Assembly (NCBI GenBank): GCA_019347675.1
Contig: JAHWKW010000006.1
Location: 1 to 64,000 of the forward strand
Length of the DNA: 64,000 nt
From: Actinomycetota bacterium
Lineage (GTDB): Bacteria; Actinomycetota; Nitriliruptoria; Nitriliruptorales; JAHWKO01
Reading direction: 5' to 3'
This document shows positions 24,374 through 26,150 of the stretch, piece after piece (the first letter of the stretch is position 1; each line of letters begins with the position of its first letter). The notes below the pieces were generated by a model. That model made no database searches. It saw nothing but the letters and a program-made list of their open reading frames with translations, and was not told the origin of the DNA. A program made the translations under genes and the position numbers.

Positions 24374-24695
24374 TCAGGGGTCGCGCGTTGCTGGCCCCAC
24401 CTGAGCAGCGACATCCATGGTGTGGGGACTGAAGGCCTCCACGAGCTCTTGAACTTTCGCGACCCGCTCTTGGAATCCAGGACGTTGGCGCCACTCGGTC
24501 ACAGCCTCCTCACTTTGCCATGGCCCGAAACTGATGAAGCGCTCGGGAGCGTCACGATCCTGAAAGGAGCTTGGCCCACGTGGCCCCCGGGACGTTGGCA
24601 GCGGTCCACTCCGCGAACTCGCGCCAAGCGGCCATGAACTCGTCTTGTCTTCTGTCCTTCGCCGTCCACTCTCCGAGCGTGTAGAGCTGTGCCAC
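24374..24695 (-). pseudogene. Antibiotic-biosynthesis-monooxygenase-like protein with one frameshift
   Basis: GTG 24695, preceded by AGGAG, starts VAQLYTLGEWTAKDRRQDEF then REFAEWTAANVPGATWAKLL. After one extra T at about 24563-24566 the coding continues in another frame: QDRDAPERFISFGPWQSEEA, VTEWRQRPGFQERVAKVQEL, ending TRDP-stop at 24374. Joined, this is a roughly 106-residue ABM ferredoxin-like protein. A single indel separates it from a functional gene, so assembly error is a real alternative. Confidence 0.75.
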
Positions 24696-24830
24696 GACTG
24701 AACTCCTAATCGGTTCGACGTTCATCCTGCCCGTCCCGATACTGCAACGTCCACGGGCAGGGATGCGGCCCGGCGGTGCCTGATCAGTCCGCGGTCGGGT
24801 AGCCGGGGTCGCTGCGCCCCGGCCCCCTCA

Positions 24831-24864
24831 GAACCCGGCGTGCGGCTTGCACCGCACCGGGCTC
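24831..24864 (-). ncRNA. Group II intron domain V
   Basis: 34 nt on the minus strand: GAGCCCGG, TGCGGT, loop GCAA, GCCGCA, bulge CG, CCGGGTTC. All pairs of the lower and upper stems form (with G-U wobbles), the GNRA-type tetraloop and two-nucleotide bulge are at canonical positions and the catalytic AGC triad is at the 5' side. This is the most diagnostic part of the ribozyme and appears intact. Confidence 0.9.
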
Positions 24865-24905
24865 AAGCAAGCCTGTCAGGGTCAGCCGGCTCGTCGTCAT
24901 CCGTC

Positions 24906-25016
24906 TCACCTTGCGACGGCCCTCGGTCCGTTCACCGCCGGAGCGGTGTCCAACTTGTCCTCGGGTTCTGACGCTTCGTCGGCCTCGTCGTCGGGCTCAC
25001 CTGACCCTGTCAGCAC
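24906..25016 (-). pseudogene. Stump of the group II intron-encoded protein
   Basis: GTG 25016 begins VLTGSGEPDDEADEASEPED then KLDTAPAVNGP, resembling the acidic N-terminal extension of actinobacterial group II intron reverse transcriptases, which usually continues into a WDSIDW-like segment and the RT domain. Here it joins RAVAR and stops at 24906-24908. No RT or maturase motif remains. The deletion lies inside domain IV, where loss of the ORF does not destroy the ribozyme. Confidence 0.65.
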
Positions 25017-25516
25017 CCTTTCGGGTCGGGCACCAGGCCCGTATCCGGCCAGTTGTCCGAGCACCCGCCGGTGGAGGCCGACGCCTGGCTGTGCCCGGTT
25101 TCCTGCCGCCTTTCGGCTGCCGGCGTTCGCTTCTGGGTCATCCTCGGCCCGCTGAGGGATTGGGCTTTCCTTACGGTCGGCTTACCGGCACCACCGACGG
25201 CGGGCCGGATCTCAACGGGGTTGCCACGTTCACACACACGAGATGCGACCGGCGAGGGCGCCCCCTTTACCCCGACAACGGCGGTGTTCCTACGACCGAG
25301 ATCCCGTCTCCCGGTCGCCGCCTGCCGCCTTGCAACGGCACGGTTGTTACCACCCCGCTGGACCATCCCATCCGCGAGGCTCCACGTAACGAGGCATCAC
25401 CAGGGGTTCACTTGCGTTCGCCCGTCCGGTCTTCCCCTCGCCTGTGGCCCCCGGATGGAACGGGGACCCTTGGGCTTACACCTGAGCTTCGCACCCCGCC
25501 GTTACCGGCGGCGCAC

Positions 25517-25760
25517 GTCAGGGCAGGGACGGGTCCACGGAACACTGGCCCAGAGCTACACATCCGACATTGGCGTCGACCTCCAATCTGTGCACTCACT
25601 CGACATGTGCGACCTCGTGTCGCACCAGAAAGCCGTGGTTGTCGCGCGCGTTGAGGAAGTTCATCATGGGCCATAGCGCGCCGGTAGAAGATTATGCAAG
25701 TTCATCGGCGCCGAGCGTCGCACGGGCGTCCACGAGATCGCGATTCGATGAGATGGTGCC
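25517..25760. other. Flank of the group II intron
   Basis: The minus-strand 5' exon side. A GTGCGACACGAGGTCGCAC inverted repeat near 25606-25624 is a possible intron-homing target or terminator. Weak frames only; I identify no gene here. Confidence 0.3.
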
Positions 25761-26150
25761 ATGGAGCTGGACGTTCATCCGACCGTGCTGGCGATCTGTC
25801 GACTGGACCCTTCCCGGGCTATCCCGGCTTGGGCCACGGGAGCGGCAGGTCCATTGGTGTCCGTGACCCGAACGAGTGACGAGCTGTCGGTCGTGATCCC
25901 CGAACACGCCGTGCCGCGCTCGGTGCGCTATGAGGGGTCCTGGCTGGGGATGTCGGTCCGTGGTCCGTTGGAGTTCTCGCTCACGGGTGTTGTGGCCGGA
26001 TTGTCGGCGCCACTGGCGGACGCGGGGATCCCGATCTTCGTCGTGTCGACCTTCGACACCGATTGGCTGTTGGTGCGCGCAGACGACATTGACCACGCTG
26101 TTGAGGCGCTAGGTGGTGCCGGGCATCAGGTCCATTTCCTGGAAGCCTGA
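25761..26150 (+). CDS. ACT-domain protein (CASTOR-like)
   Basis: 129 residues from ATG 25761. The first half contains SDELSVVIPEHAVP and RYEGSWLGMSVRGPLEFSLT; the second has the ACT-type GLSAPLADAGIPIFVVSTFD followed by TDWLLVRADDIDHAVEALGG. This double layout is that of the small ACT/CASTOR-fold proteins, which bind amino acids or other small ligands. Intact gene between a group II intron and an insertion sequence. Ligand unknown. Confidence 0.85.
   Translation: MELDVHPTVLAICRLDPSRAIPAWATGAAGPLVSVTRTSDELSVVIPEHAVPRSVRYEGSWLGMSVRGPLEFSLTGVVAGLSAPLADAGIPIFVVSTFDTDWLLVRADDIDHAVEALGGAGHQVHFLEA

Follow-up and report, generated by a model that had tools for sequence, protein, structure and literature searches.

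An 832-nt group II intron lies on the minus strand of a contig from a Nitriliruptorales bacterium, running from position 25625 to position 24794 of the window (the whole 64,000-nt stretch of DNA analysed here). We consider it probable that this intron is a non-autonomous derivative, which would have been inserted with a maturase supplied in trans and would now be stranded and in early decay. The features on which this reading draws are listed in Table 1.

Both ends of the intron can be placed by comparison. The insertion site also occurs unoccupied elsewhere in the same genome (L005, G000:C42); there the two flanks abut exactly with no gap, and this copy splits precisely between positions 25626 and 24793 of the window. 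The insertion is thus precise and duplicated no target sequence, which is what reverse splicing would give. Alignments with homologous introns on actinobacterial plasmids begin at 25625/25626 (nt 1 of the intron is 25625), and the ends are supported by about twenty homologues at the 5' side and thirteen at the 3' side. The terminal motifs, GTGCG ... CGAC, fit the GUGYG 5' end and AY 3' end of group II introns. A preliminary description of this DNA had given the intron an extent of 24794-25516. Its 3' end (24794) stands, but its 5' end does not: the Rfam match, L005, and the homologues all identify the GTGCG at 25516 as an internal hairpin of domain I, and the true length is 832 nt, not 723. 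The exon junction proposed at the time (25516/24794) was likewise wrong, as L005 and the homologues give 25626/24793.

Table 1. Features of the intron and its exons (window coordinates; nt, position within the intron).
Feature	Position	Strand	Evidence
5' exon part in common with the unoccupied site	25626..25648	-	22/23 identical to L005:1478-1500
IBS2 (CCACG)	25634..25638	-	pairing with EBS2
IBS1 (TTTCTG), end of 5' exon	25626..25631	-	pairing with EBS1
Complete ORF-less group II intron, 832 nt	24794..25625	-	unoccupied site L005 and homologues; 5' GTGCGACACG ... CTACCCGAC 3'
Domain I (nt 1-401)	25225..25625	-	covarying consensus structure of 22 introns
EBS2 (CGTGG), nt 240-244	25382..25386	-	5/5 pairs with IBS2; exon-intron covariation
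EBS1 (CGGGAT), nt 320-325	25301..25306	-	5 contiguous pairs with IBS1, 2 of them G-U; covariation
EBS3 nucleotide A, most likely nt 359	25267..25267	-	mismatch to first exon nucleotide C
Domain II (nt 407-478)	25148..25219	-	covarying consensus structure of 22 introns
Domain III and neighbouring helices (nt 486-624)	25002..25140	-	consensus structure; limit between domains III and IV approximate
36-codon remnant frame VLTGSGEPDDEADEASEPEDKLDTAPAVNGPRAVAR*, GTG..TGA	24906..25016	-	comparison with RT of relatives
Shortened domain IV, ~137 nt versus ~1.9 kb	24865..25001	-	comparison with ORF-bearing relatives
Domain V, 34-nt hairpin with AGC triad, GCAA loop, and two-nt bulge	24831..24864	-	Rfam match, fold
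Domain VI, bulged A at 24800 (7th nt from 3' end)	24794..24830	-	fold, alignment
3' exon part in common with the unoccupied site	24751..24793	-	39/43 identical to L005:1501-1543

The ribozyme core is well preserved. Rfam model group-II-D1D4-7 matches positions 25527-25481 (minus strand) with 39.3 bits. From an alignment of twenty-two introns we derived a consensus structure with 156 pairs in domains I-III, ninety-three of which show compensatory changes; the closing helix of domain III is among the elements that covary in the relatives. The preliminary description had named a failure of these domains to fold in a covariance model as one observation that would speak against its reading. They do fold, and the window intron keeps 147 of the 156 consensus pairs (95%), while a control in which pairing partners were slid by one to three columns gave a pairing of 0.36-0.45. 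When each intron was left out of the consensus in turn, the window intron kept 90% of pairs and the others 89-97%. It breaks seven of 241 near-invariant columns (other introns: 0-19). On these alignment-based measures, the predicted core is indistinguishable from that of the other copies, most of which are ORF-bearing.

Domains V and VI match the Rfam model Intron_gpII (RF00029) at 24866-24794 (minus strand) with 55.5 bits (E = 3.5e-8; gathering score 40), versus 42.5 bits for the ORF-bearing relative L007. Domain V is canonical, and the original call of an ORF-less group II intron with intact domain V was correct, with domains I-III intact as well. Domain VI had been described as recognisable, which holds, and the branch-point A is kept, but 4 nt are gone between 24809 and 24808, leaving a tip helix 4 nt shorter than in thirteen aligned relatives.

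Exon-binding sites were located by covariation between intron segments and the exons across the twenty-two introns; the scan against the 5' exon gave one clear EBS1 and one clear EBS2. Only fourteen of 127,974 window positions match both EBS1 and EBS2 as well as the actual 5' exon does. EBS1 pairs weakly with the present exon. The EBS3 position is complementary to the exon in ten of twelve introns, and the window intron is not one of the ten. Another EBS1 candidate, CAGAAG (nt ~490, chosen by eye), was dropped after covariation placed EBS1 at nt 320.

What sets the intron apart is domain IV. As the preliminary description had noted, the reverse transcriptase (RT) is reduced to thirty-six codons (25016-24906), and domain IV encodes no RT/maturase. 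Only about ten residues of the remnant frame (DKLDT..VNGP) resemble the RT start of the relatives, and no RT motif is left. The conserved start of domain IV is retained (GACAAGTTGGAC ... GTGAACGGACC); after it the window reads CCGAGG, versus CCCGAGG in most relatives, and then a stop. A basal stem for this domain (GGGTCAG/CTGACCC), taken from a single-sequence fold, was rejected: the partner of GGGTCAG across the family is the domain III side, and the fold is unexceptional (z = -1.76).

The relatives of the intron are found on plasmids of Streptomyces, Rhodococcus, Mycobacterium, and Arthrobacter and are 71-76% identical to it in domains I-III. These plasmid introns (e.g. NZ_CP130724.1, NZ_CP109328.1) agree with it in their ends, EBS positions, and domains V and VI. 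Unlike it, most have an ltrA gene that lies after domain III and ahead of domain V and encodes an RT/maturase of about 590 aa with RVT_1 and GIIM domains (TIGR04416); in the window intron this part of domain IV is deleted. The L007 protein has RVT_N, RVT_1, and GIIM domains and passes TIGR04416. Among solved structures its best match is 6me0 (E = 3.7e-100), which we take to be the T. elongatus maturase, with LtrA at E = 4.9e-32. For the CL/IIB1 class (as TeI4/EcI5 of T. elongatus), defined by a CL-class intron-encoded protein and a IIB1 RNA structure, the comparison made was this ranking of solved structures. One Streptomyces plasmid (NZ_CP109405.1, L006:1531-6638) carries two full-length introns in direct tandem with the same RT accession, so that the 3' end of the first is exactly where the second starts.

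A fragment in a second genome bears on when the ORF was lost. It lies on a Nitriliruptoraceae MAG contig (PXDB01000091; G032/L050), from another family of the same order and at a different locus, and is 85% identical to the window intron over 263 nt (nt 516-776), spanning the ORF-deletion junction. The 60 nt 3' of the junction are 83% identical between the two and had no other significant match among the loci compared. The fragment is decayed: its 5' part is absent, and its domain V is broken and has no Rfam match. In a tree of the shared part (151 columns), the window intron, G032, and L003, a sibling intron in the host genome, form one clade (98/98), within which the tree gives no branching order. 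Because the ORF-less junction is common to both introns, the ORF was probably lost once, in their common ancestor, and the ORF-less form may have been passed on by vertical descent. The spread of this form is read from two loci, the sole other ORF-less member (G032/L050) being itself broken. A scan of GTDB contigs for the junction pattern gave thirty matches, of which only L050 is a true relative; the same scan of viral sequences gave fifteen matches and no relatives, and a phage search found no match. Weak intron matches in G049, G108, and G025 are truncated, rearranged, or short, and were set aside as not being intact ORF-less copies. A literature search returned no dedicated report on group II introns in the actinobacterial class Nitriliruptoria.

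The host genome likely has no intact maturase. Searches with the RVT_1 and group II maturase families found no complete RT/maturase in this 76-contig draft, which is 96.7% complete by tool estimate and from which a multi-copy maturase intron could be missing; they found only fragments (C21:34677-35060 and C1:1005-1220). The search for a full-length relative elsewhere in the genome, which the preliminary description had suggested, turned up only these fragments, the C1 one belonging to L003 (L003:282-1220, G000:C1), an ORF-bearing sibling of the window intron that is truncated at both ends and whose RT is frameshifted near L003:981. None of the other introns in this genome is intact. The C21 fragment belongs to a group II intron of another class at L040:240-1564 (G000:C21:33932-35256). 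Its RT has lost the middle part, so that the N-terminus is joined directly to YADD and domain X; an open frame of 211 codons covers the maturase-domain end, and its domain V falls below the Rfam cut-off.

The neighbourhood of the intron is a decaying region, as is typical for bacterial introns. Directly downstream (24430-24735, minus strand) is an ABM-type monooxygenase-like gene that is apparently split by a frameshift, and transposase-like remains, named by eye, are also present. Neither the joined exon reading frame nor the unoccupied site has a Pfam match that would name the interrupted gene. A partial copy of the ACT-domain protein gene at 25761-26150 (plus strand) lies on contig C60 (L002:1501-1865); it is 91% identical and is broken off near a transposase-like gene.

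The observations behind our preferred reading are the precise insertion without target duplication, the EBS/IBS match, the intact core, and the junction in common with another genome. A deletion within domain IV would have removed nearly the whole ORF from an ancestor in an actinobacterial lineage of RT-bearing introns, and the shortened intron would have retained the ribozyme and its exon-binding sites. It would have entered the present site by reverse splicing, presumably using the RT/maturase of a related intron. The likely donor type appears to be left in the genome only as the broken L003, and so the window copy is now probably stranded. Splicing of such a copy would be chemically possible in principle, but it would receive little if any help in vivo, and decay would be beginning at the domain VI tip and EBS3. 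The EBS3 mismatch, the two G-U pairs of EBS1, and the domain VI tip deletion together suggest a dying copy, and it seems rather unlikely that splicing in the host still reaches a useful level.

The small lesions in domain VI and EBS3 would also suit a plain fossil: an ORF-bearing intron that inserted here, was stripped of its ORF at this site by a random deletion, and is now inactive. The broken genes and transposase fragments around it and the broken state of every other intron in the genome agree with this. We nevertheless think it unlikely, because the deletion junction and the 60 nt beyond it recur in another genome at another locus. The deletion is therefore older than either the window insertion or the divergence of the two families, and a one-off deletion in place is unlikely. 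The core is, moreover, as conserved as in ORF-bearing copies. The preliminary description had left the intron as either spliced with help in trans or a fossil, and this choice is now narrower: the junction in G032 speaks against a one-off deletion, and the small lesions, with no complete maturase found, are read as early decay. The complete core, domain V, and branch-point A, together with the lack of a complete maturase among those detected, would suit a live intron that only splices, needing no protein or aided by a host factor, in the manner of Clostridium tetani C.te.I1. However, the match of EBS1 and EBS3 to the present exons is weak, and selection for splicing is not evident because these exons form no recognisable gene, making this reading improbable. 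We give as little credence to a bolder version, in which a compact lineage would have arisen once in Nitriliruptorales and crossed families on borrowed maturases, with the window copy splicing in a genome without an intact maturase. If it were true, the intron would join C.te.I1 as the second bacterial example of its kind.

ORF-less introns are rare in bacteria, and a related maturase almost always goes with them; the exception named is C.te.I1 (PMC4424553, PMC3919590). This usual though not universal pattern of a related trans-acting maturase in the same genome (PMC4424553) was not seen in the draft genome examined here. In Thermosynechococcus elongatus, ORF-less introns are mobilised in trans, and the TeI3 introns resemble the window intron in a single ORF loss by domain IV deletion that left an N-terminal ORF remnant; they pair well through EBS/IBS at many sites (PMC2882425). 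However, T. elongatus has seventeen ORF-less copies along with intact driver maturases (PMC2882425), whereas here we found a single well-preserved copy plus a fossil in a second genome, and no driver that is intact. C.te.I1 is likewise a bacterial group II intron with no ORF, from a genome in which no maturase has been detected, but it has been shown to splice in vivo and in vitro and lies in a surface-layer gene (PMC3919590). The window intron, whose core is intact, whose empty target site is known, and whose EBS/IBS pairings are mapped, in a genome where no intact maturase was found, offers a case for asking how long an intron RNA stays functional after losing its helper. As an element it is ordinary in kind, and its interest comes from a core that is intact, an ORF-less ancestor shared with G032, and a helper that is missing. 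It is a further case of a rare but known type, and it extends the ORF-less pattern to the Nitriliruptoria.
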